From: Isoetes taiwanensis
Taxonomy: Eukaryota > Streptophyta > Lycopodiopsida > Isoetales > Isoetaceae
Direction of reading: 5' to 3'
NCBI GenBank assembly: GCA_021234155.1
Contig: JAJEKV010000086.1
Coordinates: forward strand, 3,583,461 to 3,647,460
DNA length: 64,000 nucleotides
The position numbers were made by a program, and so were the translations under genes. Within the stretch, counting starts at the first letter, position 1. The number at the start of each line of letters is the position of its first letter. Positions 30,127 to 58,987 of the stretch are shown here, piece after piece. A model generated the notes under the pieces. That model saw only the letters and a program-made list of their open reading frames with translations, did not search any database and had not been told where the DNA came from.

Positions 30127-30162
30127 ATCATCGACTCTATAAAGCCATCAATAATATGTGCA

Positions 30163-32034: not shown

Positions 32035-32215
32035 TCTAAATTATATGTATGCCATCAATAATATGTGCATCAGATGTAATGATGTGTATTAAACACCTAT
32101 TATAAAAGATGTAAGGATGTTAGTATAAGCATAATGGAAGCTAATGGATGTATCGACAACGTATTAATTGTCCAAAATGCTTAAGTATTATAGCAAAAGA
32201 AATTACATACATGAT

Positions 32216-32865
32216 CAGGGATAGGTTCAATACGTTGTACGTTTTATACGTAATACGTATGAATTCAGCATTAAACATATTTGCTGGAGTAAAACGAAAA
32301 AATACTAAGAAAAATCGTATTGTTTGAAGATTTTCGCAGACGCTGAACAACGCGGAAAGCCGTGACGCCGCTGAAAATTTTTTCGCCAGACGCCGAAACA
32401 GTTGAAAAACCGCCAGACGCTGGAATGGATTCGCCGTGACGCTGAACCTTCCTCCGTGATCACAGACGCCGAAGTATTTTCACAGACGCGATATTGTAAG
32501 AATTCATGCACGCGAGTCTTTAAAAAAAAAAAATTTTTTTTTTACGGATTTAAAAAAAATCTTTTTTTTTTTTGAATTTGGCGACGCGAAAATATCGGTG
32601 GAGCCAGACGCCGAAAATTTTTTCACAGACGCAGATGGGTAAGGTTCACAGACGCCGATTTTTTTTTTCTTTTGCGTCACAGACGCTGGGTTGCGTTTCG
32701 GCAGACGCCGGAAAAATTTTCACAGACGTACATCGGTTACAGACGCCAATTTTTTTCCCACGGCGTAGGTTTTTAATATGTTAAATACGTATTTTATTAA
32801 AAATACGTGTTTTTTGACTTTATACGTCAGGAATTTTAATTTTGTACGTATAGAACCTATCCCTG
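32216..32865. mobile_element. hAT-type MITE, copy 1
   Basis: The ends are CAGGGATAGGTTCAATACG and CGTATAGAACCTATCCCTG, an inverted repeat with one mismatch in 19 bases. They are flanked by a perfect 8-bp duplication TACATGAT at 32208-32215 and 32866-32873. CAGGG..CCCTG ends and an 8-bp duplication identify the hAT superfamily. The interior is non-coding and rich in CAGACGC / GCGTCTG words and TACGTAT palindromes. It lies 180 bp beyond Helitron C. Two diverged copies are at 43907 and 48542. Confidence 0.9.
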
Positions 32866-32913
32866 TACATGATTATCGAGAACATGACTGAGATTGAGAG
32901 CTTTTAGCTAATG

Positions 32914-35011: not shown

Positions 35012-35611
35012 AACTAACAAAGTTTAAAATGAAACGCACTTATTTGCTGCAAACGCACTTCAAAAGGAATCTTTGAAAGATTCCCTAAAATTCCCTTAAA
35101 AAATGCCCTTTTCTTGGTATATTTGTGACAAGTGTGACAATTTGAATATTTTAGGCACCATTTTTGGAGGGGAATTTGAACTCAGCTTCCATTCAAAATT
35201 GTTTGGTACCATTTTTTGACCCCCTAGTTTGGTTTGAGAAATAGTAATATTTTTAAGGACAAAACAAAATAGACATTGAAAAAAAACAGCAAGCGCTAAG
35301 AGTGCCCAAAAACGTATTTAGTTCAAAGTTTATAAATTCACTACAAAATTATGAACAAAATTGCAAAAAATGCAACACATTTTGATATTGCCTCAATGAA
35401 GCAAATATTGTCACCTTAAAGTATGCCTCACACGCGAGGTGAAGTCGAAGATGCTTGCGCTTTGCTTTATACACTTGCTCTTATTTGCTCCTCCAGCTTG
35501 CTATAGACTTCTGTATCTGCATGATGGCGGCGTATGTATCCAATCTGACTTTTTTAAACTTTGTAATTTATTTGTTCTCTGTAGTCTTTAGTTTCTTCCA
35601 AATAAATTTCA

Positions 35612-35996
35612 AGATGGTATAAATTTATACCTTAATAGATAGTAATATGTGGACATAGTATGCTAGAGAGTTCGCACGGTATAAATTTATACCGCAAGAA
35701 GACTTGAGCGGTATAGATTTATACAACAAAAGAACTCGAGCGGTATAAATTTATACAGCAAAAGGACTCGAGCGGTATAAATTTATACCGCAAAAGGACC
35801 CAAGCGGTATAAATTTATACCGCAAGAGGACCCAAGCGGTATAAATTTATACCAAAGATATATATATATGTATATTATATAAATATATAATATATATATA
35901 ACATATATATTTACATATATATATCCGAAAAAAAGAGAAGTCTTGCGGTATAAATCTATACCGCGAGACTTCCTGCGGTATAAATTTATACCGTTT
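35612..35996. repeat. array of GGTATAAATTTATACC palindromes
   Basis: About nine copies of the perfect 16-bp palindrome GGTATAAATTTATACC, most extended to GCGGTATAAATTTATACCGC, spaced about 31 bp apart by GCAAAAGGACCCGAGC-like linkers at 35678-35860, with two more at 35945-35996. A tenth lies inside the ORF at 36751. (TATA)n microsatellites follow at 35860-36095. Confidence 0.9.
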
Positions 35997-36395
35997 TTTT
36001 TTTTATATATACAAATATGTGAACGTATATATATTGAATATATATATATATATTAACATGTATAAGATGTATATAGATATATATATACATAAAATATGTA
36101 GTCCAGGAGTATAAGTTTATATTGTGCAAAATCTTGTGGGGTCTTTCTTGCTCCCAAAGGTTTTTGCAACTTAATACTGTTGAAATAACACACTCAAGGG
36201 ATAATTTTATGCAGTTTTCTTAGTTTTTTAGTTCAAAAAGTTCTAAAATAGTTCTAAATTCTCTGACCTTGTAATGCAATGTTAGAGCATAAATTAGTCG
36301 AATCCCGTTGTTATTTTTACTTTTTTTTCTCTACACACATGCTAACTTCACTTTAGGCAGCTCAAAAACTGCTTCTAAAGGCAAAGGACCCCAAA

Positions 36396-36908
36396 ATGTT
36401 ATGGAGACACATGTGTTCAACGAGAAGGAAACTACGTAGTTTGTCCATAGGGGTGCGAGGAGTAGCAACCCCTCAAAAGTTTACCTATTTCTTTGCAAAC
36501 GGACAAAAAAAAAAGCAAGATAGACAAATACTTCTCTGGGAGAAATGTGCAAAGGCAGCCTTTTCGCTACATGATGATGGAATTGTGCTGAAGACTCTCA
36601 ACATTGACAAGGAGCTTGACTATCTTCTCAACATCACTACATTGTGGATTGGTATTGTGCAAGCCCAAAGACATGATGAATACATCTCCGAGAACAACAA
36701 AGAAGGCCATGTAATCACAGAGCTTCACTACTTCAACTTCTGTTTCCTCGGTATAAATTTATACTTTGATCGTCCGGTTGGAACTTCAACTAACCGCATG
36801 ATTTCGCGGGATGTATTATCATTTGTAATACCATATGATGCAAAAACAATAATTTTTCATTCAAGCAGTTTGTTCAACTGTCTCCCAATGTCTTTTAAGG
36901 TCAATTAG
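36396..36908 (+). CDS. ORF in TIR element, unidentified
   Basis: 170 codons from an ATG to a TAG. The stretch KCAKAAFSLHDDGIVLKTLN...ITELHYFNFCFLG looks like real protein; the first ~40 residues overlap another frame that also looks coding (THVFNEKE..VHRGARSSNP), suggesting a frameshift near 36480. It contains one copy of the GGTATAAATTTATA motif as codons for GINLYF. I do not recognise the family and cannot say whether it is a transposase remnant or captured sequence. Confidence 0.4.
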   Translation: MLWRHMCSTRRKLRSLSIGVRGVATPQKFTYFFANGQKKKQDRQILLWEKCAKAAFSLHDDGIVLKTLNIDKELDYLLNITTLWIGIVQAQRHDEYISENNKEGHVITELHYFNFCFLGINLYFDRPVGTSTNRMISRDVLSFVIPYDAKTIIFHSSSLFNCLPMSFKVN

Positions 36909-37273
36909 GATGTTTAGTCAAAATGGTTGTGAAATAACAAATTTTTTGTCTTCTATAACAGCCAATATAAACGTTCTAAGGGATAAGATACAAAAGCGTC
37001 TAATTTTTTCATATGAGTTTGCCCCATAATAAATCTTTGGCTTTCGTAGTGGTCCTTTTTCCCTCTAAAATGAGATATTTTTCTTTGTTGTTCTTCTCCT
37101 TAATGTTAAGTCTTCCTAAAATGTCTGTTTTCATGAGCAGTTTTATAAATCTTTAGACACAAGATAGTAAAAGAGTCCTTTTTAGGGGTATTTTAGAATT
37201 TTGTAAATTTTTAGAAGGAATCTTTCAAACGCACTTCTTAAATAAGTGCGTTTCATTTTAAACCTTGTTAACT

Positions 37274-38360
37274 CCTAAAGCCACGCCGCCATGCATGTGA
37301 GACAAAGACTCCACTCCCGCAGACCACTACTTTTCGCCTCCGGACCGCCTGTATAAGTTACACTCAACACATCAAAAACAAGCGTAATCCTGGCACTGCT
37401 TGATTGAGAATAAAATTCTTTTCTTAAGGCACATACTTGCTGTCGGCTCAGTTTTTTGACACATTCGTCCCTGCAGCATGTTGATTTTAGAGCACTCTTG
37501 ATTGCCTTGGAAGCGCACATCCTCTCCTCCTTGCCATCCCCCTTTGGTTCCCTCCTGACCCTCTTCATATATGTATATTTCCTTTTCCTCTTGAATTGCT
37601 TCTCAACATCAGCTTCCAAGCACTCAACTTCTAAATCATCATGTTCGAGAGCAGCAAGAGCTTGTAAATGTTGTGAAACTGTCCTACCATCATGAAGCAA
37701 AACAAAGATGGGTCTCCCAAGTTACTAGATCGTTAGCTATAGGCCTCTCGGCTGACAAGCATGACATGACACGATATTTTGGTTTCCCGTTGGATCTATT
37801 ATGTTACCCAATGAAAGCCCGACCTTTGATACACCCAAGAACTCATCGTCCTATAGCATCCCGAGGATCACTAAAGACTATATTAAGCCTCCAGAATATT
37901 TAGATCCGGTCTGCGGGAGTGAAGGATGTAGCATGGCAAACCTAGTAGATCTGCTTGCGAGTAGTAGATCGCCTCATCTTCTTCGTGGCTTAAACAACCC
38001 GAGACCAAGGCGGGCAGCTAGATTCTCATGACCTCCAATCTCCTCTACTATCTCGTCTTCTTCATTTGTTGCTATGTTGCTTGGTTCACCACAGTGAGCA
38101 GTGAAACTGATGTCCGGCGGGCTACTGACAGATGGTGGACTACTAGATGAATCCTCTTGTGAAGAGGGCAAATTGAGGGATCTCGAAGACGTATCTTCAC
38201 TTGAGGGCCACTCATTTGGTTTTACATCCCTCTTAAGGCCACTGAATGAATGTGCCTACTGCTTCACCAATGTTATCTGCCCCTCCACAGGGGACTGGAA
38301 GCTCTGTCGATGGGATCACGGACTCTGTGACCTCAATTGCTACATTTGAAGGATCTATTT
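37274..38360 (-). pseudogene. DUF7869-type protein gene, 5' part
   Basis: The minus strand reads, from about 38360 down, an acidic serine-rich N terminus (SQEDSSSSPPSVSSPPDIS.., NEEDEIVEEIGGHEN), an interrupted stretch, then LLHDGRTVSQHLQALAALEHD, a basic segment FKRKRKYTYMKRVRRE, and a cysteine module KSTCCRDECVKKLSRQQVCALRKEFYSQS typical of this class of proteins. It then joins, across the 2254-bp TIR element, to the helix-turn-helix part at 35005. The stretch 37700-37980 has several stops. The start codon is not certain. Confidence 0.6.
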
Positions 38361-38628
38361 CCTTCCCATAAAGAGTGGTTCTATTCAAAATATGTCCCCG
38401 GGCAACAATTGTCCTTAGGACCTAATAGGTTGTGCAGGGGAAAATTAAACCTGTTTCAATCAAGCAAGGCGATACTTTTCAGAACATATGAAATAGAGGA
38501 AAAATAAGCAAAAAATAAGAGAAAATGGCGCTATTTAGTACAAAAGTATAAATTTTGGTCCAAAGTTGGAGCTAAATGGCGCCATGGCGCTATTTGGTGT
38601 AACGGTGAACACTTGGATCAAATGGCCA

Positions 38629-38775
38629 TGGCTATTATTTGGTCGAAATGGTGTTTGGATCATGGCCATTTGATCCAAATTCACACCTATGAATGTGCCA
38701 TAGGTGTGAATTTGGATCAAATGGCTTCATGGCCATTTGATCCAAACACCATTTCGACCAAATGGCGCCATGGCG
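38629..38775. repeat. nested inverted repeat
   Basis: GGTCGAAATGGTGTTTGGATCA near 38640 is repeated in reverse as TGATCCAAACACCATTTCGACC near 38740, and between them TTTGATCCAAATTCACACCTATG pairs with CATAGGTGTGAATTTGGATCAAA. The fold is a ~60-bp-armed hairpin with ATGGCGCCAT-type palindromes next to it (38575-38600, 38763-38780). Confidence 0.85.
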
Positions 38776-39130
38776 CTATTTGATCCAACACCATTTCGAC
38801 CAAATGGCTTAGCTCCATCACAAAATCTACACGAGGTGCCTATGTTATGCATTCTTGCTCCCATTGCTGTATATGTGTCAATAAGAGCAGGCATGCATAA
38901 CATGGGCACCCCATGCCAACTTTGCAATTGAAACCAAGGTTCTTAGTATCCTAGCAGCATTAATGTCGGCATTTGAACACTCTATACACATGGCGGCAAA
39001 TAGAAACGTAATTTATACCAGAAACAATGGGACTTACTTGATATTAGATAGATCCATAGTGGTATGTCCCGAGCAAGGATAGAACAGGGAAAATCAAGCT
39101 GATCCCAAAGCAGGATATATTGGCGTAAGA

Positions 39131-39242: not shown

Positions 39243-40119
39243 GGGATTTCGTGGCCTAAGAAGAAAGCGCTGACAAAGACGCGATGCGCCTTTGCAAAGT
39301 TTCTGCCTAGGCCTGAGAAAAGAAGCGCCTTTTGGCGGCGGGCAAAATGAGACGAACATGCGGATTCGAAGCTGAACCGCACGAAAAAACGCCTGCGTCG
39401 TGGCATGGTCGTGATTAAGGGGGAGCACGGGCGGCAAAGAGGGAGCTTTAAAGGCAAAGTACAATTTTCAAAATGGACGATTCAAATTTGGACAGGTTGC
39501 TGTCAAATTTCAACATACCGCGGAATTTTGACTTTTATGTTAATTATGGGCGGAATTTTGAATTTTATGTTCAAATTTGGGCTGGCGTTTAGGCGGAAAT
39601 ATTCAATTTCAAAATTCGAATTGTGGCCGGGTGCATGGGCGCTGGACCGCCACCGCACCTCCGGGCGTGGCAGCGGGCATGGGGGCATGGACCGCCTGGA
39701 CCGCCACGGCACGGGCGGGCGTGGGCGGGGCATGGCATGGGCGCTCACCGCCACGGCATGGGCCGACAAATGATGGGCCCTAGTTGGCGCTGTTTTTCTG
39801 AAGCTTCTCATTAAGCTTTATTCGTTTTCGATTCCGGCTCCAAATAGCCTCGACCTTAGCCGCCGGCGCCCGGCGCCTAGCCCCAAATACTAAGCGCCAG
39901 CGCCCTAAAGCAACCCTTTTCATCCTTTTTTAGTGATTTCTCAAGCCATTTCCCATGATTCAACGCCTCAATACATCTAGATACACACCGGTTTTCGACC
40001 AAATTCAAAGCCTATGAAATGGAAATGGACAATTCTGGAGCTCCTCAAAATGTGGAGACAGAGGCTAGCTTACCTCAAGGTACATGTATGTCGTCTACTT
40101 GCATTGTTTGTTTGGGCTA

Positions 40120-40385
40120 AATGGCGCCACCGCGCTATTTAGATGCATGGTAACCACTTTAGGGTCTTATAGTTGACAAATGGCGCCATGGCGCCATTTG
40201 ATGTGTATTAGCATACATTTGGGACTTGTTGTTGGCAAATGGCGCCATAGCGCCATTTGATGTGTATTAGCTTACCATAGGGCCTTGTTGTTGGCAAATA
40301 GCGCCATGGCGCCATTTGATGTCTATTAGCATACATTTGGAACTTGTTGTTGGCAAATGGCGCCATGGTGCCATTTTTATCTGCG
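40120..40385. repeat. 62-bp tandem repeat with ATGGCGCCAT palindromes in intron 1
   Basis: Four copies of a ~62-bp unit (TTGTTGTTGGCAAATGGCGC.. then GATGTGTATTAGCATACATT). Each holds the nested palindrome ATGGCGCCATGGCGCCAT with at most one or two changes. They lie just after the exon 1 donor. Confidence 0.9.
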
Positions 40386-40439
40386 TCCAGTCCTTTAACA
40401 CTAATGGAGGCAGCGGCATATGTATTCTCCTACAAGTCG

Positions 40440-40775
40440 CAGGTGCCTCGACCCAGTCAGAGCCACTCTCCTTCCAACCATCTTCCGTGAATATTTGGAA
40501 GGGGAGGGGCTCGACTGGTCGAGGCACCTTTCAAACGCAGGAAATGCATTCGTCTTTGCTTCCATTTGCTTATGCCGAACTTCGGATGCAAATGGCCATG
40601 GCGCCATTTGCCTAGTCATCCTGCATGCGCTTGTTACGTTTCTCTCTCCCTCCTACGATGGCGGGTGCCTCCACCCAGTCAGATCCACTCTCCTTCGAAC
40701 CATCTTCCTCGAATATTGCGAAGGGAGTGGTTTGGACTTGGTGGAGGCCTCTTCACCAAACGCGGGGATAGGCAT
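40440..40775. repeat. two tandem hairpins in intron 1
   Basis: 40440-40530 forms a stem between AGGTGCCTCGACCCAGTC and GACTGGTCGAGGCACCTT; 40655-40770 is a second diverged copy (GGGTGCCTCCACCCAGTC against GACTTGGTGGAGGC). Loops share ACCATCTTCC.TGAATATT. Both are followed by ATGGCGCCAT-type sites (near 40592 and 40817). Confidence 0.8.
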
Positions 40776-43700
40776 ATGAAACCGCCTCCGTGCTTATGCA
40801 CTGGACTCACATACAAATGGCGCCACGGCGCCATTTGCCAACCACAACCGATTGTCTGCCTGCTTGTTCTAACCATTTACTGATGCCTCTTTGTTACTGA
40901 TGCCTCTTTGTTGCAGCTATCTTACGTGCGGAAACACAATTTCAATCCGACCAGACTATGATGCTGATAGACAGGCACTGGTGCATGGAAGTAATGCGGG
41001 TGAGCCCCTCTACTGCTACAGGCTCGAAAGGAGAGACTTAAGAGGCCTCGCACCTCCTTATAAGGGAGACAGAACCGCGAAACGGTAGGCATTTACCAGC
41101 CAGGTATCTTGGTCCAAATGAAGTTGGTTGCCAAGAGCGGTCGCGAGGATTGGATCCGGGTGGTCTGTGAGGATACTTTGAAGCAGAAAATAATTGTGTA
41201 CTATGTGGACTGGAAGTTTTATGATCCCACTGTAATGTCTGCTAGCATTGCAAATGTAGCTGGTTCGGCGAAGAAGCAAAATTTGAAGCGCCATCGCATA
41301 ACAAATTGAAGAAGCCGACATCAAAGGTCCACAAGAAATCTTGAGGGGCTTTATGATTCTTCGCGTCGGATGAACGCAGTCTAAAAACTCGCCTTCATTC
41401 GTTGTCAAGGCAATAGCCCAATAGAAACTACCCGCCATTGTGGACACGGCCCGGCTAAAATCAAAGTGGAGCAAGAAGAAGACAAGACAACCTAGGGATA
41501 CACCCGCAAATGACAAAGACTCCTCATCTTCTCGAGGATGTCCAGAACCCGGAGGAAGGGAAGGCTAAGGGCAAGAGGAAAGTTAAGAGAAAGGATCACA
41601 AAGATCCGTGATATGGAAAAGAAGGAAAAGAAGCAAGCTAAAGAAAACGAAGAGAAGGAAAAGGAAGAGAAGGAAGATAAAGAAAAGAGGGAAAAGAAGG
41701 AAAAGAAAAAGGAAAGGAAAGAAAAGGATAGGGAAGGCAAGGGGCAGAAGGAAGAAAAGGCGAGACAGGAAAAGGAGGGAAAGGAAGTGGAGACAGAGGA
41801 AACAGATGGGAAAAAGAAGAAGAAGCACGTGCCGGAGACCATTCGAAAGGAGAGGACACCTAAAAAAAAAGGAGAGCCTCTGACTCCAAGTCCTGGCTGA
41901 AGTCCTAGAAGTGGTGGTGAACCTCCCAGCCCAAGGCATAGCGAGGATCCCTTGGACACACCGGCCAAAAGGGTCCCTATTAAGAAGCCGTGAGCTAAAG
42001 AAGGTCACATTAAGAATAGCTCGGCCCTTGCTAGAGGTGCCCGCAAATCTTCGGGTAGAAAGGTCAAGAGGAAAAGAGGAGAAATACACCGAGAAAAATT
42101 CTTGCAAAAATTTCACGATCATCGGCATCTGTTTCCTCTCGGGGTCACATTCATTAAAAAAATAGACGTGTTCAAATTATATCAAGGGCCAGCAAATCTG
42201 ACATCTAGACCAAGGAATATGGAGCACGTCAAAACTTTGGTGGAGTCCTTTTCAGAGAGACCCACATCCGATCTTCACTCCGTGATGTGATTCCATTCAA
42301 TCCCCTCACAAACAAAGCGGTCCCTTGGAAAACCGAGGATGACCTCATGGGGATGCACTATTATATAGTGAATGGTAATCATTCGCTTATGGCTGCTCGG
42401 CTTGTATGTAGAAGACTTCGGCACACCAAAGTCCCAAGAGCAAATGTCAAAGATTTATCTTGAACGGAATTGCCGAAAGTGTTATCCGCACGATCCAATC
42501 GAAACAGGGAATGCTGCGGCTCGGTTGTGAAGTCAATGATATCATCTGCGAAGACTATTTTCAAAGAGCCATTCATTGATAACATAACCCACCAAGCGGC
42601 AGCAATATGCTCTATCGCGGGAAGCCCTGATCCATTGGGACGCCGGGCAATCTCGGGCCGAGAACCATACAAGGTACATGTTTTAATTTTTACAGAAGAT
42701 TATGAAATGGCGGCCGTGTGGCGCCATTTCCTCACCAAATGGCACCACGGCACCATTTGTTCACCAAATGGCGCCACGGGCCATTTGCTCGATAAATGTT
42801 AGCCTAACTTCTTGTTGTTTTCAGCGTTATCCGGCTTTGGCTGAAGTTACCATCGTGGTAAGCATCCTAAAGATTTCAATCGATGGGTCTTCATGCGAGA
42901 GGACATTTTTCGCTTATTCGTGTCCCTATGGAACTTGTGGAAATCTTGCAAGCTAAAAAGACAACAAGGGTCAAACTATTACACATGGCGGGCAAAAGAA
43001 TCGACTACTTCAAATGACCTACCTACGAGGTGCATGAGGGGTATGGACTACAAGACCGGGGTTACCTTCCGTGAAGTCTTTGGATGGGAAGACCTTCGTC
43101 CAAGGTCACCAAAGTGATTATCTGGTGTAAGCAATTCTTCAAAGGCAAGGGCAAAGACACTAAGATCCATATCTTTCTTGAAGAAGGAGATTTTTGCATA
43201 CGTGAAGGATAATTTTCCGAGGAAGTTCAAGTCCTTCATCGATCTCGATTGCAGGTCTTGCGGGCTTGAGGATACCGCCTGATTTCCATGGCCACCTTGC
43301 ATAGTAAGTGGGTTGAAACCGAGTGAGCAAGGAAGGCATTTTTCGGTAACGTGCCACCGCCTTGGCAAGATTCATACGCAATGTTGTCTTGAAGAGAGGG
43401 ATCTCAAGACTTCCGTTCTGCGAAGTTGAACTAACAGAACGACAAGGGACAAGTTGTTTGCACTCCCCGTGCGGTATCCTTGATTGCCCCGGACACTAGA
43501 GGCATATTTCCAATGTGGGACAAAACCACACTAACAAATTTCTTTAATACAAATTGTAAAGAACACCACGGTGATTCTTTTGGATAGTGGTCTTTGCAAG
43601 GCGGACACAACTTTTGATTTCATCTGTATTGGATGATCCGGATTCGGATCCGAGTTTATATTGGCATGTATGAGGGCCGAATACAAGAATCCGCCTCCCG

Positions 43701-43906
43701 GGGAGTTCGGGAGGCCCATTCACTAGTGTATGCCACAAAGATTCAGGCCACTGAAGGTCCTCCCCCCCGGCAATTGACCTCAAGTTCCCCTTCAACGATC
43801 ATCCTCAAGAACCGCCACCGGTTCACGTGCCCTAACGAAGAAGAAGGCGGGGAGACCGAGGCTATGGCCCGGTAAGCTCTGCAGCAATGGCGGTCAGGTA
43901 CAGACC

Positions 43907-44530
43907 CGGGGATAGGTTCAATACGGCAGACGTTTTATACGAATGCGATGAATTGTATGATACGGGCACAAATTTGCCGTATAAAACATAAAAAAAATAC
44001 TGAAAAAATAATTCCGGCGTCCCGGAAGATTTTCGCGTCTGTGAAAACAACTATATCTCAGCGTCTGAAAAATTTTCGCCAGCGTCTGTGAAACCTTCAG
44101 AGCACGTCTGCAAACCAAATTTTTTTGACGCTCGAAAACAAAAGCGCGCCACAGACGCGGACTTTTTGGCGTCGCATTTAGTTGTTTTGGCGTCAGCGCA
44201 AAAAATCTTCCGACGCCGGAATTGTTTTTTGCCGTATTTTTTTTTTGAACACCGTATTTGCTTTAAGCGTCTGCTGAAATGAATGGATAGCGTCTGCCAA
44301 ATAATTTTCGCGCACGCTATCCGCACTTTCGGCGTCTGCCGCGAATGTCGGGCCTGTCCTTTTCTTGCGATTCTTTCTATTTCGGCGTCGCGAAAAAATT
44401 TTCTGCGTCTGCCAAGATTTTTTTTCCTACGGCGAGGTATTTATCGTTAAATCGTATTTTTATTAAAAAATCGTATTTTTTAACTTTATCGTCGAAATTT
44501 TAATTTTGTGCATTATAGAACCTATCCACG
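43907..44530. mobile_element. hAT-type MITE, copy 2 (in unit 1)
   Basis: Ends CGGGGATAGGTTCAATACG and TATAGAACCTATCCACG match copy 1 at 32216. The interior is again rich in GCGTCTG(TGA) words. It sits at the same place in the methyltransferase-like gene as copy 3, so the insertion predates the duplication. No clean 8-bp duplication remains. Confidence 0.8.
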
Positions 44531-45423
44531 AGTACGGTGGCAAGGCTTGCCGGGGGACATAATTATGAGAAACCAGTGGGGGCTGCTACATGCTCGTGCC
44601 TCGTCGCGAGGAAAATAGTGCCGCCAGAACAGGGGTGTTTGATTACTTCTCCTCATGTGGTTCTTTTGGCCGGGCTTCATTCTTTGAATAAGAGATTTTG
44701 CATTGTATTCGAAAGTGACCCGTTAGCGGGGAGTGCCTAAGGGGGATTCTTGATAGGCTTGACCGCCCTCTTGAATCCTACCATCGCAGTGTTCTCGTGA
44801 TGAGAGAGACCACCTGGCCAGAGTTGAAGAAGCCGTAGATCCACCAAATCCGGATATGCCCGGCTCCACCCGATGTGGACTACGATGTGATCAAGAACAC
44901 ACCATTCGATCTGGACATTCTTAATGATCCCAATTTCACTGCCACAGCGTTCGAGAGCTTTCAGGGAGATCCTATGGTTGCTTCTTCTAGCCATGGCCCT
45001 GGCCATACGGAACCTGATCCTTTTGTGGAGCCTGTTCTCGATGAGGAACCCCGAATTTTGTATGAAAATAATGTAAATTGTACACTAATACTCTTGTAAA
45101 ACGGACTACCTCTTCCGGAGTCCTTGCTTGTTTTGGCAAATTTTTTAATATGCAAATCTATGAATTGAATTTTTAACTATTTTTGTGATGTTATATTTCT
45201 CCAGCTTCATTACATGCAATGCTAGAATTTTTAATGGCGCCAATAAATGGCACTTTAGATGCATATTTTTTCTAAATGGCGCCATAATTGCTCAAAAAAT
45301 TGGCATAAAGTTGACTAAGAAGGATTTTCATTCCTAATTGGAATCACGAAATTTCTCATTTTAATGAAATTGTGCTTTATATCAAAGGTAGCCTTTTCTG
45401 CGACTGGAGCTTTTAGCGGTCTT

Positions 45424-45611
45424 CTAAATTTTGTTAATGCCATACTGAGGAATACGTGCCTTTAGATGTCTTTTAATTCTTGTTAATGCGATAATGAGGA
45501 GAATGGCAACGAACAATGCACCTATAAGACCTGCTATAACACCTGCTTTAGATTTTCTCTTTGAAGTACGGGTTGGTGGAGAAGATGTTGGTGGAGATGC
45601 AATTGAGGATG
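45424..45611 (-). pseudogene. duplicated 3' end of lectin receptor exon
   Basis: The minus strand encodes SPPTSSPPTRTSKRKSKAGV, the membrane segment and RIKRHLKARIPQYGINKI, identical to the end of the exon at 50085-50272. It is present only because the 4.27-kb duplication started inside that exon. Upstream codons are unrelated. Confidence 0.92.
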
Positions 45612-46014
45612 CAATTGACGTGGTAGAACTTAAAAGCTTATACATGTCCTCCACTTTGGCTGCTCGTTGGCAGTGGGACAAAAACTAGCTAGTTTGTAAA
45701 AAGACTAGTCTAGACCAGTAAAAGTTGGTTTACAGATTACTGTGGTTGGTTTACTGGTTACTGTAAAAAGCCCTCTGGTCCTAGGATGCCCAAAAAGTCA
45801 TACGTGGCAGGCGGCACTAGGCTGGTGACGTTGGGTTCAACGATGCCCCTAGAGTTGCCCTTAGGATCCGAAAACTTCCTCAAGGTGGGATTGTATCCTG
45901 CCTACAAAGTGTGCATGTATGGCCAAAGTTTTGCCCAACGGATGTGTGGTGAGTTGGTATAGGCCTAGTAATGCCAAAAATAAGTGTTCATTTGGTCATG
46001 GGTTCAAACCTTCC
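45612..46014. other. 403-bp spacer between duplication units, with tRNA-like piece
   Basis: Unique sequence between the two units. At about 45942-46012 it has GTGGTGAGTTGGTATAGGCC (A-box-like) and 50 bases later GGGTTCAAACC (B-box-like), the internal promoter layout of a tRNA-derived SINE. The spacer ends directly at the start of unit 2. Confidence 0.45.
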
Positions 46015-47321
46015 AATCTTGAGGGGCTTTATGATTCTTCGCAATCGGATGAACGAGTCGAAAAACTCGCCTTCATTCGTTGTCAAGGCAATAGCCCAGC
46101 AGAAACTACCCGCCATTGTGGACACGGCCTGGCTAAAATCAGTGAGCAAGAAGAAGACAAGACAACCTAGGGATACACCTGCAGCCGACAAAGACTCCTC
46201 ATCTTCTACTGAGGATGTCCAGGAACCGGAGGAAGGGAAGGCGGCGGGCAAGAGGAAAGTTAAGAGAAAGGATCACAAAGATCCAGATATGGAAAAGAAG
46301 GAAAAGAAGCAAGCTAAAGAAAACCAAGAGAAGGAAAAGGAAGAGAAGGAAGATAAAGAAAAGAGGGAAAAGAAGGAAAAGAAAAAGGAAAGGAAAGAAA
46401 AGGATAGGGAAGGCAAGGGGCGGAAGAAGAAAAGGCGGGACAGAAAAGGAGGGAAAGGAAGTGGAGACAGAGAGAAACAGATGGGAAAAGAAGAAGAAGC
46501 ACAGTAGGAGACCATTCGAAGGAGAGGACACCTAAAAACAAAGGAGAGCCTCGGACTCCAAGTCCTCGAAGAAGTCCTAGAAGTGGTGGTGAACCTCCCG
46601 AGCCCAAGGCATAGCGAGGATCCTGCCAGGACACCGGCCAAAGGGTCCCTATTAAGAAGCCGAGCTAAAGAAGGTCACATTAAGAATAGCTCAAAGACTT
46701 GCTAGAGGTGCCCTGCAAATCTTCAATGGAAAGGTCAAGAGGAAAAGACTCAAGAGAATACACTTTGCAAAAAATTTTACGATCACCCATCTGTTTCCTC
46801 TCGGGTCACATTCATTAAAAAAATAGACGTGTTCAAATTATATCAAGGGCCAGCAAATCTGACATCTAGACCAAGGAATATGGAGCACGTCAAAACTTTG
46901 GTGGAGTCCTTTCAGAGAGACCCACATCCAGTCTTCACTCCCGCTGATGTGATTCCATTCAATCCCCTCACAAACAAACTGGTCCCTTGGAAAACCGAGG
47001 ATGACCTCATGGGGATGCACTATTATATAGTGAATGGTAATCATTCGATTATGGTCGCTTCGGCTTGTATGTAGAAGACTCGGCACACCAAAGTCCCAAG
47101 AGCAAATGTCAAAGATTTATCTTGAACGGAATTGCCGAGTGTTATCTGGCACAGTCAACGAACAGGAATGCCTGCAGCTCAGTTGTGAAGTCAATGATAT
47201 CACTGCGAAGACTATTTTCAAAGAGCCATTCATTGATAACATAACCCACCAAGGGCAATATGCTCTATCGCGAAGCTTCGATCCATTGGGACGCGGGCAA
47301 TCTCGCTCAGAACCATACAAG

Positions 47322-47470
47322 GTACATGTTTTAATTTTCTGCAAGATTATGAAATGGCGCCGTGTGGCACCATTTCCTCACCAAATGGCACCACGGCACC
47401 ATTTGTTCACCAAATGGCGCCACGGCGCCATTTGCTCATTAAATGTTCGTCTAACTTCTTGTTGTTTTCA
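47322..47470 (+). other. intron with ATGGCGCCAT-type palindromes
   Basis: ATACAAG|GTACAT ... TTGTTTTCAG|CGTTAT is a well-formed 149-bp intron, conserved in copy 1 (42674-42824). It holds three ATGGC(G/A)CCA(C/T)GGC(G/A)CCATTT-like palindromes in a row, leaving little other sequence. Confidence 0.8.
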
Positions 47471-48541
47471 GCGTTATCTGGCTTTGGCTGAAGTTACCAT
47501 GCGTGGTAAGCATCCTAAAGATTTCAATCAGTGGGTCTTCATGCCAGAGGACATTTTTCAGTTATTCGTGTCCCTATGGAACTTGTGGAAATCTTGCAAG
47601 CTAAAAGACAACAAGGGTCAAACTATTACACATGGCGGGCAAAAGAATCGACTACTTCAGTCGGTCGGACCTACGAGGTGCATGAGGGGTATGGACTACT
47701 TAAGACCGGGTTACGTTCGAGGGAAGTCTTTGGATGGGAAGACCTTCAAAGGTCACCGGTGATTATCTGGTAAGCAATTCTTCAAGGCAAGGGCAAAGAC
47801 ACTAAGATCCATATCTTTCTTGAAGAAGGAGATTTTTGCATACGTGAAGGATAATTTTCCGAGGAAGTTCAAGTCCTTCATGATCTCAAGATCTTTAAAG
47901 ATCTTGGGGCCGAGGATCTGGACGATTTCCATGGCCACCTTGCATAGTAAGTGGGTTGAAACCGGAGTGAGCAAGGAAGGCATTTTTGATAGCGTGCCAC
48001 CGCCTTGGCAAGATTCATACGCAATGTTGTCTTGAAGAGAGGATCTTGAAGACTTCCGTTGCGGTTGAACTAACAGACGACAAGGGACAAGTTGTTTGCA
48101 CTCTGTGCCCGGTATCCTTGATTGCCACGGACACTAGAGGCATATTTCCAATGTGGGACAAAACCACACTAACAAATTTCTTTAATACGGTTGTAAAAAG
48201 AACACCACAACTGATTCTTTTTGGATAGTGGTCTTTGCAAGGCGGAGCACAACTTTTTGATTTCATCGTATTGGATGATCCGGATTCCATCGAGTTTATA
48301 TTGGCATGTATGAGGGGCGAATACAAGAATCCGCCTCCCCGGGGAGTTCGGGGAGACCCATTCACTAGTGTATGCCACAAAGATTGAACCCGCTTGAAGG
48401 TCCTCTGCCGAAACAATTGACCTCAAGTTCCCCTTCAGCGATCATCCTCAAGAACTGCCACGGTTCACGTGCCTAACGAAGAAGACGAAGGCGGGAGGCC
48501 AGGGCTATGGCGGTAAGCTCTGCAGCGGCGGTCGGTGCAAC

Positions 48542-49190
48542 CGGGGATAGGTTCAATACGGTATGTTTTATCACGGAATACGTATGAATTGTATGATCTG
48601 ACACAAATTTGCCGTATAAAAGCAAAAATATCGGCAAAAACAATTCCGGCGTCGGAAGATTTTCGCGCGTCTGTAAAACAACTATATCAGCGTCTGTGAA
48701 AAATTTTTCAGCGTCTGTGAAAACCTTGAGAACAGCGTCTGTGAAACCAAAATTTTTCACAGTCGCAAAAACAACGCTCCACGGCGTCTGCGGACTTTTT
48801 CGTCTGCGATTTAGATGTTTTTCCGACGCGTCAAAATCTTCCGACGCGAATTGTTTTTTAGGTATTTTTTTGCCGTATTTTTTTTTTTTTGAACACGCTT
48901 TTGCGTCTGCGAAATGGCCGGATAAGCGTCTGCGAAAAAATTTTTTAATCGCGCTATCCGCGAAGCTTTCGCGTGCGCGCCGATGTCGCCCGTCCTTTTT
49001 GCGCCGCGATTCTTTCTATTTCGGCGTCGCGAAAAAATTTTCGTGCAAGCCATCCGCGAAGGTTTCCGCGTCGCGAAGATTTTTTCCTGGCGAGGTATTT
49101 ATACGTTAAATCATTATTTTATTAAAAAATACGTATTTTTAACTTTATCGTCCGAAATTTTAATTTTGTGCGTATAGAACCTATCCTCAG
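48542..49190. mobile_element. hAT-type MITE, copy 3 (in unit 2), at an intron end
   Basis: Ends CGGGGATAGGTTCAATACG and CGTATAGAACCTATCCTCAG. With donor GGCG|GTAAGC at 48513 the element makes up almost the whole intron, and its last bases CTCAG provide the acceptor, because the next exon starts exactly at 49191 and reads DAVARLAGG in frame. The interior is rich in GCGTCTG words as in copies 1 and 2. Confidence 0.8.
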
Positions 49191-49713
49191 ATGCGGTGGC
49201 AAGGCTTGCCGGGGGACATAATTATGAGAAACCAGTGGGGCTGCTACATGCTTTCGTTACCTCGTCGCGAGAAAATAGTGCCAGCCCGCCGGGAGAACGG
49301 GTGTTTGATTACTTCTCCGGTGGTTCTTTTGGCCGGGCTTCATTCTTTGAACAAGAGATTTTGCATTGTATTCGAAAGTGACCGGTTAAGCGGGGAGTGC
49401 CTAAGGGGATTCTTGATAGGCTTGACCGCCCTCTTGAATCCTACCATCGCAAATTCTGTGGCGGAGAGACCACTAACGTAGTTGAAGAAGTCAGAGATCC
49501 ACCAAATCCAGATATGCCCGAAGCTCCACCCGATGTGGACTACGATGTGATCAAGAACACACCATTCGATCTGGACATTCTTAATGATCCCAATTTCACT
49601 GCCACAGCGTTCGAGAGCTTTCAGGGAGATCCTATGGTTGCTTCTTCTAGCCATGGCCCTGGCCATACGGAACCTGATCCTTTTGTGGAGCCTGTTCCTG
49701 ATGAGGAACCCTG

Positions 49714-50116
49714 AATTTTGTATGAAAATAATGTAAATTGTACACTAATACTCTTGTAAACAGACTACCTCTTCCGAGTCCTTGCTTGTTTTGGCAAATT
49801 TTTTTAATATGCAAATCTATGAATTCGGAATTTTTAACTATTTTTGTGATGTTATATTTCTCCAGCTTCATTACATGCAATGCTAGAATTTTTAATGGCG
49901 CCAATAAATGGCACTTTAGATGCATATTTTTTTTAAATGGCGCCATAATTGCTCAAAAAATTGGCATAAAGTTGACTAAAAAGGATTTTCATTCCTAATT
50001 GGAATCACGAAATTTCTCATTTTAATGAAATTGTGCTTTATATCAAAGGTAGCCTTTTCTGCGACTGGAGCTTTTAGCGGTCTTCTAAATTTTGTTAATG
50101 CCATACTGAGGAATAC
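49714..50116. other. convergent 3' flanks
   Basis: Between the stop of the plus-strand methyltransferase-like copy 2 and the minus-strand lectin exon end. It contains two ATGGCGCCA sites (near 49894 and 49937). The same stretch is at 45053-45430 in unit 1. Confidence 0.6.
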
Positions 50117-51623
50117 GTGCCTTTAGATGTCTTTTAATTCTTGTTAATGCGATAATGAGGAGAATGGCAACGAACAATGCACCTATAAGACCTGCTATAA
50201 CACCTGCTTTAGATTTTCTCTTTGAAGTACGGGTTGGTGGAGAAGATGTTGGTGGAGATGCAATTGAGGATGAAGAACCTTGCATCCGAATTAAGGCAGT
50301 CGAATTGTAGGTATTTGAAGCCAACCTTTTAAGTGTGTAAACTTCTGTCAAAGTATAACAGGTTCTAGAAATGTTGGTTGTTTTAAAAAATGCAGCCTTG
50401 CATGAACAATTAGCTTTACACAGGTTCTGGCAATCATCTATAGAACTAGCATTGCTTCCATTCATGTAAGACAGAGGAGGATAATCATAATCTTCCATCT
50501 GAACAAAGTGTTGGTTGCTTGAAGGGTCACTGGAATTGCAGACAAGGGAAACATTGGTATTGCAGCCCAGGTTAGGTTCTGAGTATACTGAAGTGAACTT
50601 GTCAGACACAAGTGATCCATTTCCAGTTGAAATGTTTAAACAGCTGCATTGACCTGAAATGCACAGCCCATATGATCCACAAGTGCCAGGTAAACTGCAA
50701 TTGTCCACTCCACTTGGAAGATCAAAGATCATTTGCCAGTCAGTAGCATTATCCCAAGCATAAACCTCTACTTTACCCTTGGAGTTTATTTGTAGGTATT
50801 GTAAAGGCTTAGAAGATGGAATTGAAATTTTTATATCAGGCTTAGAATGACTTGTGAGAAAAAGATCCAGACTGCCTTTGTTGAACTGTGCATACGGATC
50901 ATTAAGAACATTAGAGGTATTTTGAGAGGTATTCCTCCAGTAAACCTGTGGATCTGGTGCCTGCGCATATAGAAAAAGCCCTGTCTTTTCAACTTGAAGG
51001 TAGTAAAGGCCCTCTGAATAATTTGAAGCAGAAGAACTGGCACGAAGCTTGTTACTTGCACTTAAAGTTTGTGTCAACAACAGTGCATCAGTAGGATGGT
51101 CAAAACTCTTCCATACAGTTTGACTCTCATTAGCAAGAAGTACCAGATTCCCATCTCTTTGCAAAGAAATCTTAGTAGCATTGCTAGTGCTGGTAGACCA
51201 AACAGCGGTATTATCATAATCCCTAAGCACCATATTTCCATCAGATTGGAGTTGCAAGATTGCATTTCCCCCAACAGCTTTGTCCCTATTGGCTGTCCAG
51301 ACTACACGAGGCTTGCTATTATCGTCATTATGAAATATTAAGACAGATAAAAAATGATTTGCAGTGTTGTTCCTAAAAAACCCAAAGGCATAATTTACCC
51401 CTCCACTGGAATTCGAGAGCACTACCCTCATAAGGCTCCCATCAGGGTAGTTACTCTGTTCTAAGCTGTGATCATTATACCATATATTCGAAGGAACACC
51501 ACCAGCTTGTGCTTGGGATGGCGAAGTCTGACAAGAAGCACCTGAAATAAGGAATGAAAATGCTAAGCAAATAGGAACATATACCCGAATGGAGCTAATA
51601 ATGGCTTTCCTCTTGGAGTTCAT
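50117..51623 (-). CDS. G-type lectin S-receptor-like kinase, ectodomain and membrane exon
   Basis: ATG at 51623. Residues 1-32 form a signal peptide (VYVPICLAFSFLISGASC); then a bulb-lectin domain (about 40-190; VVWTANRDKAVGGNA, LQSDGNMVLRD, DGNLVL, WKSFDHPTD), an S-locus glycoprotein region, a short cysteine cluster DNCSLPGTCGSYGLCISGQC (about 305), a PAN-like region with paired cysteines (about 370-450), and a membrane helix AGVIAGLIGALFVAILLIIA (about 476-495) followed by basic residues. The frame is intact and ends at a stop at 50085, but kinase sequence should follow; a donor GCAC|GTATTC at 50117/50116 would splice in phase to the kinase exon at 28259. Sugar-binding plasma-membrane receptor. 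Confidence 0.85.
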
Positions 51624-51717
51624 CGGCCTATTGCGCCCTGGGTCTTCTCAACGCCCTGGAAAAATCTTATGAAAGGTCTAAAAGGTCCGATTAAGAATGA
51701 GTAGTGGAAATCATGCA

Positions 51718-52116
51718 CAAATTGTAATTGATGACCAAATTGAAAGGATTTGTCTTCAATCTCTCATCATTTGAGTTCGTACAACTCATTTATTAGTGGT
51801 TGGTAGCGCTAGTGAGGAAGAAGAAAAGCAATTTCCACATTCATTAAAGACACTTCAATCAATGGCCCACTGTAAGCATAAAGGCACCTATATTAACCAT
51901 CCGGAATAAACCGTCGTTTAAAGCTCAAACAAATTGCAATTGATGACCAAATTGAAAGTATTTGTCTTCAATCTCTCATCATCGTACAATTCATTTATTA
52001 GTATTTGGTAGCGCTAGTGAGCAATTTTCACATTAAGACACTTCAATCAATGGCCCACTGTAAGCATAAAGGCATCTATATCAACCATCCGGAATGAACC
52101 CTCGTTTAAAGCTCAT
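51718..52116. repeat. ~210-bp tandem duplication upstream of lectin receptor
   Basis: Copies start with CAAATTG(T/C)AATTGATGACC at 51718 and 51930 and both end with CATCCGGAAT(A/G)AACC.TCGTTTAAAGCTC. The second lacks about 23 bp. The array begins ~95 bp upstream of the ATG and therefore probably lies in the promoter/5' leader. Confidence 0.88.
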
Positions 52117-53133
52117 ATGAGGTGGAATTTTGTCTAAGCTCATTTTCGATACTGCTTTGATACAAAGTTAGCAAATTTGATACGGAACAGAAATCAGTCA
52201 TATACCAGAATAGAGAGGATCTAATGCTGAAAATCCACTAGTCCGCTACAATTCTTTAACTATCTCGACCAAATTCGACTGCCTAGAAGCTTAATATGGG
52301 GATTTGGAGATTGTTTTTTGATCTGCGACAAGCTCTCGATAGCGGGAATCCATGGAAGAGAAAAAGTCGGCAGAACTGAATAATTTGGCATAATAGATCT
52401 TATTATTTGTAAATATATAAATTGAATTGAACGATTGTATCTGGTCACGGAGACCAATCGTACTGTTTCCTTGATCCTGGGCCCTTAGATATAGGCATAT
52501 TTTTTGTTGTGAGATCTGGGCCCCTCATGTAGGCTTTTGACGGAGTCAAATGCTTACATGGCTCTATAACCATCCAAATGAAATTGAATACACAGTATGC
52601 TGCTGCAAAGCAATACGTCTTCAAACTTGGCTTCTTAGTGAAGCCCACCTTCCTCCATCTCCCTGATCCAGCACACAAAAACCATAGCAACAAACAGGCC
52701 AGGGGAATCGAACCCCTTGCGCAGAGCGCAACCCAAAGGCCTGTCCTCCCCTAAAGGGGGTCGGGGGCTATTCCCATGCAGTATGCAGATGTAAGCCCAT
52801 GTAAGCATCCAAATGTCAAGCCGAATTACAAAAGTAAACCACACAAACTTTCCACACACAAACCAGACACTTTTTTTTAGCTTTTCGCTATGTCTTCACC
52901 CACAGGCACAATGCCAAGCCATGGGTAGCCATGGCGAGCCTGTGACCACAAGCACGATTATAAACATGCCCTCCTCAACCCGGCAACACAATCGCCCTTC
53001 CTTGCATGAACAGAACAAATCAAAGAGATAAGTTCCTCACCTGTACACAGCTAGCAGAGGATGGTCGGATTCAAAGCAGAGCACAAGATAGATCCTTAGA
53101 GTCGCCTCCTGCAGGTTCGAATGCGGCATAGAC
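52117..53133. other. non-coding; SINE-like B-box piece
   Basis: No gene is seen. On the minus strand at about 52695-52745 TGCGCTCTGCGCAAGGGGTTCGATTCCCC contains a perfect pol III B-box (GGTTCGATTCC), suggesting a tRNA-derived SINE head of which the A-box is unclear. GTCACGGAGACCAATCG at about 52445 resembles the 3' end of the LINE at 58988. Confidence 0.4.
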
Positions 53134-53640
53134 CACAAGGCCCCCAAAAAATAACTGTTATCAATTTTTTACAACAATTTTTGAATAAAATCACTATAAT
53201 AAAGCAATATTATTCTGTGGGCTAATATGTTGAATAACTATGGATGATTACATCACATGGCTCATTCTTATGATTTATTGTTTTAATTTTCTACCACAGT
53301 TTAGAATTATGGTATTTTTATGGTGGTTAAAATATTTAGTCTAATACTATGGTTTAAGTAGTGCTTTAGGAATACGTGTCATAAACTAGCAACGGTTTAT
53401 GTATTAGTTGTTGATGCAACTTCAAGTGGTTACCTAATAAAGTTGGTCATATTTTTTTATATGAACAAATATTGTTCCATACAATAAATTGTCAATGTTT
53501 TTTATCGAGAAAAATAGGCTAATTGCCAATAATTTCTTCATCAAAATAGGAATGGCTTGCATTTTTTATCAATGGTGTTTTGACAATGCAATTGGTATTA
53601 GTTTATTCGTATAAGTGATGGCGATGGCGATGAAGCGGCT

Positions 53641-53700
53641 AGAAGCGAATGCCTTGGCAAACTTTTAGCAAGAAGCGAATGCCTTGGCAAACTTTTAGCA
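53641..53700. repeat. perfect 30-bp tandem duplication in LINE leader
   Basis: AGAAGCGAATGCCTTGGCAA plus ACTTTTAGCA occurs twice without change, immediately upstream of the LINE ORF1. It may belong to the LINE 5' UTR. Confidence 0.9.
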
Positions 53701-53732
53701 GTCTGGAGATGCACATGTAAAGGTTTGGAAGT

Positions 53733-54410
53733 ATGACAGGAAGAAAACAAAAACAGAAAAACTATGAAGATCCGGCAGATGGAGATTTCATACTGACCCA
53801 AGGAGCATGGGAATTGTTGATGCAGAAGATCTCGGCACTGGATACAATACAGGAGGAAGTAAAACAAGTGAGAACTTTACTGGACAAGGTGGCTACTCTA
53901 CAGTCTCGTGTTGAAACCCTTGAAGGAAGAATTGAGCTCTTGGAAAGAAATAACCAACAGCCACAATCTGCAAACCCCCCAGACCTGAAGACTGAAGTAC
54001 AATCAGTGTTAGCTGAGGAAAGAGACAGACACAAAAGAGCCCTTAGGATACGAATTATTGGAGTACCCGAAATAGCAGAGGAAAAAACCAAAGACATGGC
54101 TGTTCAATTCTGCCAAAAACACTTGAAAATGGAAGATCCTGTTATCACAGATGCATGGAGGACTGGGAGAAAAATAGAAGATAAAGTCAGACATATTTTA
54201 GTTAAATGTAGAGATGAGGCATCTCGAACAGAGATCTTGAAACAAGGGTCAATGCTGAAAGGCACCACTTACCGAATATGCGAGGACCTGACATGGCAGC
54301 AGCTGCAATCCCGTCCAGAGGCCATTCGACAAGTGAAGAAAGCACGGGCATCTGGGAAATGGGCAGTGTACAGAAACGGGCAGGTAATTATCAAAGATCG
54401 AACAGAATAG
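53733..54410 (+). CDS. LINE ORF1 protein (coiled coil, RRM, C-terminal domain)
   Basis: 225 codons from ATG to TAG. Residues about 36-72 form a heptad-patterned coiled coil (VRTLLDKVATLQSRVETLEG). Then comes LRIRIIGVPEIAEEKTKDMA, an RRM start, RTGRKIEDKVRHILVKCRDE and KGTTYRICEDLTWQQ..RPEAIRQVKKARASGK, the pattern of the C-terminal domain of vertebrate-L1-type ORF1 proteins (Transposase_22). No CCHC knuckle is present, unlike usual plant L1 ORF1. It would trimerise and coat LINE RNA. ORF2 follows in the same frame after the TAG. Confidence 0.82.
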   Translation: MTGRKQKQKNYEDPADGDFILTQGAWELLMQKISALDTIQEEVKQVRTLLDKVATLQSRVETLEGRIELLERNNQQPQSANPPDLKTEVQSVLAEERDRHKRALRIRIIGVPEIAEEKTKDMAVQFCQKHLKMEDPVITDAWRTGRKIEDKVRHILVKCRDEASRTEILKQGSMLKGTTYRICEDLTWQQLQSRPEAIRQVKKARASGKWAVYRNGQVIIKDRTE

Positions 54411-57320: not shown

Positions 57321-57983
57321 TCGTTATAAGTTTCTTCATCTAATTCTTTATGTTTTTATTACGTGATTGGTATTAGTTTTTTCAAGAAATTAAACAATGT
57401 TAAAAGAGCCATTGTTGTTTTAGAGCATAACTGGTATCAATTTATCCAACAAATCAGTAAATGTTCATTACACATCCCATTGACATTTTAATGATGAGCT
57501 CTAGTTTGTCCTACTAAAATATCCTGTTGTAAAGCAATGACAATTGATATCCAATATGAGTAATTAAACCATATGAATGTGGTATTAGTGCATATAAAGA
57601 GTGCCCGAAGGATTTGAACCCCAGTATTTCCAATTGAAACACAACTTATATAACATCCTATAATTAAACTCTGGACGCTCATCCCTATATACAATTAAAG
57701 AGCATCACTATATTTACTAAAACATAAAACTATTCACAACTTGCTCTATATAATTATTAATCGTCAAGCCATAAATTAGATAGCAGCACAAAAGACCTTT
57801 TCTTATTAAAGCAAATACAAATAGAACCAAGAATAACAAAAATCTTTGCAATATGAATAAGAACAACAATTACAAAAGAAGAAGAGGAGTTCCAAAACAT
57901 ATAAAGCAAAAGACCTCATACATGCTGATAATGCAGATAATGTAAATCCAGTGCTCAACTCTTAAATTTTGATAAAACATAAA

Positions 57984-58022
<39 letters not shown>

Positions 58023-58980: not shown

Positions 58981-58987
58981 TCAGAAG

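Follow-up and report, generated by a model that had tools for sequence, protein, structure and literature searches.

A ParB-like and methyltransferase-like accessory gene in high-copy DNA transposons of Isoetes taiwanensis and its putative recognition palindromes

We analysed a 64,000-nucleotide stretch of the Isoetes taiwanensis genome (GenBank assembly GCA_021234155.1, contig JAJEKV010000086.1, positions 3,583,461 to 3,647,460 of the forward strand; hereafter the window), in which an earlier note had described a resident plant gene joining a ParB-like domain to a DNA-methyltransferase-like C terminus. We find that this gene is transposon cargo and belongs to a large repeat family; it is not a single resident gene. 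It is probably an accessory gene of the transposon, with a ParB-like N part and a methyltransferase-like C part, and we propose that its product binds palindromes of its own element and serves roles that depend on the transposon lineage.

Rather than being bounded at 40019–49713, as had been proposed, the gene lies in an element that starts at 28265 and ends at 45377 (plus strand), followed by a tandem duplicate that reaches 50038. These borders were set by terminal inverted repeats (TIRs), 4-bp target duplications, collinearity with another copy of the element (L018) and the empty site. The 5′ TIR (AAGCACAATTTCATTATAATGGGAAA..., 28265–28299, plus strand) and the 3′ TIR (...TTTTAATGAAATTGTGCTT, 45341–45377, plus strand) are abutted by a TATA duplication (28261–28264 and 45378–45381). 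Both ends were recovered for six copies, the window's and those of five loci taken with 5.7 kb of extra upstream sequence, and all six show a perfect 4-bp target duplication (taaa, actt, attg, agtc, tact and tata). Inverted ends together with target duplications of fixed length place the element among class II TIR DNA transposons. It measures 11.5 kb in L018 and 17.1 kb in the window, where it holds two nested inserts relative to L018 (~30175–32865 and 35016–37269). Purine skew is very high at 30001–32000 (GC skew 0.67, AT skew 0.65), a segment overlapped by the first insert.

The element sits in a host gene for a lectin/S-locus receptor kinase. Pfam matches and the empty site place the extracellular and membrane part of this gene at 50085–51647 (minus strand), and the kinase part resumes on the other side of the element, from 28260 downwards; B_lectin matches one flank (7e-19) and the kinase the other (8e-22). 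When the flanks were joined with one TATA, an open frame continued into the receptor kinase domain. Because the flanks rejoin into an open kinase frame, with B_lectin and kinase on opposite sides, we conclude that the element split a receptor kinase gene. The split gene spans 21758–28264 and 45378–51647 of the window, and its reading frame shifts once between the membrane and kinase parts.

Across the assembly that we searched (1,658,258,908 bases in 1110 contigs), the 122-residue ParB-like frame of the second window copy has at least 150 copies: all 150 places scored matched, out of 3314 first-look candidates, at 61–100% identity and mostly without a stop in the matched stretch. For a query from the methyltransferase region, 119 of 3150 candidates were scored and 123 matches obtained, and homology among copies reaches well past the accessory gene. 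A more distant subfamily 2, represented by four loci, shows 41–45% identity in the methyltransferase region; three of these loci have a 3′ end closely resembling the one above, and in the fourth, L026, the end was not found. Upstream of the accessory gene and on the opposite strand lies a transposase gene (in the window, in L012 and in L213 and L214, introduced below), whose L012 frame matches Pfam DUF7869 (E 2.5e-36) and adjoins a frame with weak helix-turn-helix (HTH) matches. DUF7869 itself is abundant, with at least 150 matches genome-wide (150 of 150 scored, 9908 candidates). A 4-bp target duplication, as found here, is that of the Sola superfamily and is made by Sola1. Passages of PMC3627910 give the same length for Sola2. 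By these duplications the element is Sola-like, a high-copy TIR DNA transposon with a DUF7869 transposase. Its inverted ends, target duplications, copy number of at least 150 and insertion in a receptor kinase gene contradict the notion of a resident or domesticated nuclear gene.

The window holds two copies of the accessory gene, tandem duplicates ~4.66 kb apart. In copy 1 (plus strand), a probable exon 1 at 40019–40079, read directly from ATG to CAAG/GT, precedes exon 2 (40917–42673) and exon 3 (42825–45055, end approximate), both located by tblastn with the L017 exons, with the borders of exon 2 read from the sequence. Splicing, exon 1 included, would yield a protein that runs from the short exon 1 through an N part, a lysine-rich linker and the ParB-like domain (~42080–42673), all in exon 2, to a helical-looking region and the methyltransferase-like domain in exon 3. 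Of the GT..AG introns claimed earlier, intron 2 (42674–42824, plus strand), which contains a palindrome, has the support of open copies in which an exon frame lies on either side of it. The supposed third intron (~43.91–44.53 kb in copy 1, 48.55–49.18 kb in copy 2) turned out to be an inserted repeat with GGATAGGTTC inverted ends (~43912–44530 within exon 3 of copy 1), and the L015 and L017 frame runs through without it. The duplicate (46020–50290, plus strand) carries the gene from within exon 2 to the element's 3′ end and also takes in ~250 bp of the receptor kinase gene; copy 2 retains the open ParB-like frame of 122 residues at 46706–47071 (plus strand). ParB-like strings lie at ~42160–42400 in copy 1 and 46822–47056 in copy 2, and the EKPVG and VFDYFS strings at ~44567–44675 and ~49217–49330. 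Used as a tblastn query, a mostly open copy from another part of the genome recovered both regions in both window copies, each with several frame breaks. Both exon frames are open in L015 and, in subfamily 2, in L026 (in L017 exon 2 is missing its start, and in L016 exon 3 is interrupted by a break), which supports the claim that the two parts form a joint gene in a plant nuclear genome. Thus, both parts lie in one gene with the transposase on the opposite strand, the arrangement of a ParB-methyltransferase accessory protein.

The C-terminal piece shows a distant but testable relationship to beta-class N4/N6 DNA methyltransferases. As described in the earlier note, motif X is followed by motif I, the order of that class (Pfam, PHROG, hhalign and MAFFT). 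For L026, N6_N4_Mtase is the one family matched in Pfam (E 0.0013, profile positions 160–212 of 221, the motif X–I part); phrog_3008, a DNA methyltransferase family, matches five of six rows (best 3e-4), and the top PDB chain is RsrI methylase (E 0.14). An NCBIfam search of this part gave no match. As a reference set (n=76) we used a Sphingomonas fusion of ParB_N and N6_N4_Mtase (L131, Pfam-tested) and 75 of its 80 viral-contig relatives, five having been dropped by length. Against this set, hhalign aligned the motif X–I region (Prob 11.7, E 0.0025), and none of 60 column shuffles equalled the score. With tblastn, the methyltransferase exon hit 37 phage records, 36 of them of mycobacteriophages, at E 4–10; the 15 matches listed all sit in genes annotated methylase or methyltransferase. 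A search of viral contigs with the profile of either part gave 297 and 50 pattern matches and no relatives.

The catalytic motif is missing in the window lineage, as had been suspected, and the reason given for suspecting it probably does not hold. Motif IV, [DNS]PP[YFW], occurs in none of seven window-lineage copies, as against 75 of 76 fusion relatives ([DNS]PP[YFWH]), and the motif I region reads D[YF][FY][ST]x[GA][SA]F where 74 of 76 relatives have [DE]x[FC]xG[ST]G. The string VLDDPDS, taken earlier for the motif IV position, is unlikely to be that position: it varies among copies (VLDDLDS, VLDNLDS, ALERLES), and the DLPYG of a sister lineage aligns upstream of it. By eye, TLVVADLPYG...DFINGIKEVTTAKHWRLVVF of the sister lineage falls opposite SLIALDTRGI...NFFDTAVKNTTADSFWIVVF, with D-x-R at the motif (LDTRG or LDARQ); hhalign instead sets LPAS, ~10 residues before LDTRG, opposite the sister LPYG, and MAFFT sets ARPE opposite the DPPY of the fusions. 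All three registers lie upstream of VLDDPDS, and the catalytic motif is absent in each.

The same genome harbours this sister lineage. A genome search with N6_N4_Mtase gave at least 150 matches above the cut-off (150 of 150 scored, 1444 candidates), and among the matches listed at least five lie ~5 kb from an opposite-strand DUF7869 match. We sampled the lineage by three loci, L213, L214 and L215, each with a ParB-like exon containing GGNHS followed by exons with ADLPYG, ADLPYG and ADIPYG, respectively, and LDAFSGSGTT. Thus, D[LI]PYG, which comes near the [DNS]PP[YFW] motif, is present in three of three sister copies, whereas the window lineage lacks the catalytic motif. The DUF7869 transposase lies on the opposite strand in L213 and L214 (the Pfam matches of L214 are 6e-18 and, for DUF7869, 3.2e-51), and L215 is too short to show one. 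The two lineages are alike in architecture, in the GNHS box, in the corresponding placement of palindromes and in the opposite-strand transposase of L213 and L214; the sister lineage differs in keeping D[LI]PYG and LDAFSGSGTT and in having its own palindrome, AGTGTATTCCGGAATACACT. Aligned with hhalign, the ParB parts of the two lineages scored 33.4 (Prob 48; best shuffle 24.8) and the methyltransferase parts 42.1 (Prob 66; best shuffle 31.8), with no equal among 100 shuffles in either case. The sister methyltransferase matched the fusion reference set at Prob 98.4 (E 1.1e-14), and the sister ParB part scored 21.5 against bacterial ParB, a narrow margin over the best shuffle (20.4, none of 60 equal). 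The presence in the same genome of a lineage with D[LI]PY and FSGSGT and of another lacking the catalytic motif goes beyond what passages of PMC12477816 describe for algal transposons.

Each lineage carries its own array of palindromes inside its elements. In the window lineage, a 22-bp palindrome, AAATGGCG-N6-CGCCATTT, recurs in the introns of the accessory gene and in the gap between the two genes: two sites lie between transposase and accessory gene (38574–38781) and six in intron 1 (40119–40836), the first five of these at 59-bp spacing. The window contains 11 such palindromes (≤3 mismatches), as against 0.25 expected from shuffles, all within the element or its duplicate. At ≤2 mismatches, six subfamily-1 elements, the window's included, have 9–19 each and the four subfamily-2 loci 7–20 each. 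The palindrome was found zero times in the three sister loci, in six 3′ flanks and in window positions 1–28264 and 50301–64000. Conversely, each sister locus has 2–10 copies of AGTGTATTCCGGAATACACT, placed in the equivalent gap and intron, and none of ten window-lineage sequences has any. Over 71 sites from five elements, information content is 1.8 bits per base in the half-sites, 1.55 in the spacer, on which the choice of sites did not rely, and 0.27–0.34 in the 24-base flanks. Exact genome counts are 957 for the window-lineage palindrome and 1925 for the sister palindrome, with zero for each reversed control. Among 50 listed places for each, judged by eye, at least 17 window-lineage palindromes lie ≤5 kb from a listed accessory-gene copy and at least 13 sister palindromes ≤5 kb from a listed methyltransferase match, where our own arithmetic gives a chance expectation of ~0.05–0.1. 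By analogy, these palindromes look like putative parS-like recognition sites.

In comparisons of open copies, the accessory gene of the window lineage shows the mark of purifying selection despite its missing catalytic motif. Nei-Gojobori comparison of 51 open-copy pairs (36 for the ParB part, 15 for the methyltransferase part, from which the L026 exon was left out) gave 23 computable ratios of nonsynonymous to synonymous change (dN/dS) of 0.07–0.51, values that the choice of open copies biases low, towards constraint. All but two of the 23 ratios are ≤0.26, the highest coming from two nearly identical copies, and in 28 of the 51 pairs synonymous change is saturated.

Evidence for the ParB assignment falls short of that for the methyltransferase part. 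The ParB-like segment reported earlier for both copies is there as strings and as frames, and matched in all 150 scored places; its assignment to ParB is what stands weakly, and of the two domain profiles that were to be checked, N6_N4_Mtase was found, in L026, and ParB_N nowhere. hhalign against 24 bacterial ParB domains gave a collinear 63-column alignment (Prob 1.4), a PHROG search returned families of unknown function only (best 0.014), and tblastn against phages gave 44 records, the matches listed being to hypothetical proteins at E 8. A G-x-x-R box is a defining feature of ParB, and it is present in the ParB region of 64 (strict pattern) or 74 (loose pattern) of the 76 fusion relatives. 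Several results weigh against the reading proposed here. For the ParB-like part, Pfam and PDB searches found nothing of ParB kind; the ParB_N profile (PF02195) had zero matches genome-wide and none in five of five rows; four of 100 shuffles equalled the score against bacterial ParB; against the full fusion set only a stretch of the methyltransferase half was matched (P 0.12), and against the ParB part of the fusions the match was not significant (P 0.23); the NGNH[ST] box, present in 12 of 12 copies, lacks the G-x-x-R arginine; and the predicted structure of the 122-residue window frame alone has no confident fold (pLDDT 39). In the sister lineage, where GGNHS likewise lacks the arginine, the ParB part did not match that of the fusions significantly (P 0.19), and the sole Pfam match of the ParB-like exon is DUF6551 (E 0.0078), with no ParB_N. 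For the family assignment of the C part, the N6_N4_Mtase match is below the curated cut-off and occurs in one of six rows, and the hhalign probability against the fusions is low. The modest probabilities between the two lineages (66 and 48), the bias of dN/dS towards constraint, and the possibility that the transposase or a host factor, and not the ParB-like protein, binds the palindromes count on the same side. A convergent resemblance, the domain having another fold, would account for the silence of Pfam, PDB and ParB_N and for the missing match to the fusions; we consider it unlikely, given the collinear alignment to bacterial ParB, the margin of the sister domain over its shuffles and the same architecture being called ParB-like plus methyltransferase in Ectocarpus in passages of PMC12477816.

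What might this protein do? In the mechanism that we favour, the ParB-like part would bind the palindromes that its element carries. The methyltransferase of the sister lineage would then modify the element, at N6-adenine or N4-cytosine; the window-lineage protein would bind but not catalyse, and would aid the element's spread either by marking or shielding it or by adjusting the promoter region that separates the two genes. A more specific version, offered tentatively and by analogy with ParB/parS, is self-recognition: each lineage's protein would bind its own palindrome array, and the motif-less lineage would retain no more than binding or spreading, shielding the element from silencing or boosting its transposase. 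In the chief competing reading, the DUF7869 transposase, or else a host factor, binds the palindromes while the ParB-methyltransferase protein works elsewhere. The arrays do sit between the two genes, the transposase frame has weak HTH matches, and the sister lineage has its own transposase too, so that a lineage-specific palindrome does not point to the ParB part in particular; yet the arrays lie mid-element and in accessory-gene introns, away from the termini, which a transposase has to bind, and we regard this alternative as somewhat unlikely. That the window-lineage methyltransferase is still active, on DNA or RNA, through an unusual motif IV is quite unlikely: D-x-R-x3-P-x-W in six of seven copies, the conserved motif I region and the low dN/dS could be read this way, but no copy has the [DNS]PP[YFWH] of the relatives and the motif I pattern is altered. 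Finally, a domesticated plant gene acting as a catalytically dead reader would fit the absence of the catalytic motif. This idea is contradicted for the window locus by its multicopy, TIR-bounded nature, its target duplications and its place in a receptor kinase gene, and is extremely improbable.

Copy 1 had been called garbled. Several frame breaks are indeed present, in both copies; many of them may be assembly errors, given their concentration at CAG/CTG. Counted over columns conserved in L015, L017 and L018, differences in copy 1 fall at 92/215 CAG/CTG positions, 14/53 CCG/CGG, 13/45 other CG, 42/267 within the remaining GC-containing triplets and 92/961 at all other positions. The figures in the same order are 75/215, 19/53, 7/45, 34/267 and 92/961 for copy 2, and 43/215, 2/53, 1/45, 5/267 and 28/961 for L009. 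CAG/CTG sites are kept at 23 places in copy 1, 34 in copy 2 and 56 in L009, against 81–84 in L015, L017 and L018, and the window stretches in which differences from open copies concentrate at CAG/CTG are 42131–43900 and 46791–48530. Copy 1 most often reads CGG for CAG (6) and CCG for CTG (5), and many of its other changes are gapped or mixed. Deamination alone fits poorly, with only four simple deamination products. Passages of PMC8566536 describe an assembly of nanopore v9.4.1 reads by miniasm, racon and pilon (1658.30 Mb, 204 scaffolds and 909 contigs). The pattern, which agrees with such a nanopore assembly, suggests that the breaks arose in base calling, at methylated CHG sites in repeats left unpolished, and hence that the window copies may be CHG-methylated; true mutation is a possible alternative. 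Since the CAG/CTG concentration suggests base-calling error, we do not call the window copies dead.

In the window, the transposase gene is broken and spans 32903–38455 (minus strand). Its DUF7869 part (~33082–34141), its HTH part (34464–35023) and its N-terminal parts (37308–38455) were located by tblastn with the L012 and L018 frames, and the insert at 35016–37269 interrupts it. Near the 5′ end, open reading frame (ORF) A (28617–29240, minus strand) is a remnant of a second element gene, found by tblastn with the L018 ORF at 62% identity; a Pfam search of ORF A gave no match. Two short repeats were seen alongside the copies. A 557-bp insert stands at two different places with 99.5% identity (4884–5440 of the extended L017 and 6975–7531 of L024) and appears to be a young short element; a 555-bp repeat is 97% identical between window 20160–20713 and L009 6024–6578, near the 3′ end of the L009 element.

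DNA transposons linked with DNA-modification enzymes have a counterpart in KDZ transposons, which reportedly carry TET/JBP genes; there, transposase and enzyme differ from those found here. The earlier note knew of no described plant system of this type, and comparable proteins do exist in algal transposons. Passages of PMC12477816 describe Sola1-1_Ec32, a 21.5-kb element of Ectocarpus that encodes a ParB-like plus N4/N6 methyltransferase accessory protein, on the strand opposite the transposase and predicted to make N4-methylcytosine or N6-methyladenine, and mention similar transposon proteins in green and red algae, citing Iyer 2011 and Petroll 2025. Compared by description only, the two systems share two domains in one protein, a gene opposite the transposase and a large DNA transposon. 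They differ in that Sola1-1_Ec32 is 21.5 kb long and belongs to a brown alga, whereas the element of this vascular plant is 11.5 kb, has at least 150 copies, lacks the catalytic motif in the window lineage and carries palindrome arrays; the main text of PMC12477816 contains no word beginning with "palindrom". The Sphingomonas fusion L131 and its 75 relatives share the domain order and alignable motifs X and I, but they keep [DNS]PP[YFWH] (75/76) and G-x-x-R, whereas the plant protein has neither and has a longer linker. Among the papers listed in literature searches for such a system in land plants, and going by word counts, PMC12477816, on algae, was alone in pointing to one, and publication elsewhere is possible. 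Thus, the kind of protein is known from algal transposons, and what goes beyond the passages of that paper is the host group, the missing catalytic motif and the lineage-specific palindromes.

A prokaryote-type ParB-methyltransferase protein, apparently kept by selection in the abundant transposons of this vascular plant, is relevant to the ways in which such elements may escape host silencing. The genome holds a lineage with the catalytic motif and another that lacks it, and the conserved palindrome differs between them, so that the DNA that the protein would recognise and the need for methylation both become testable.

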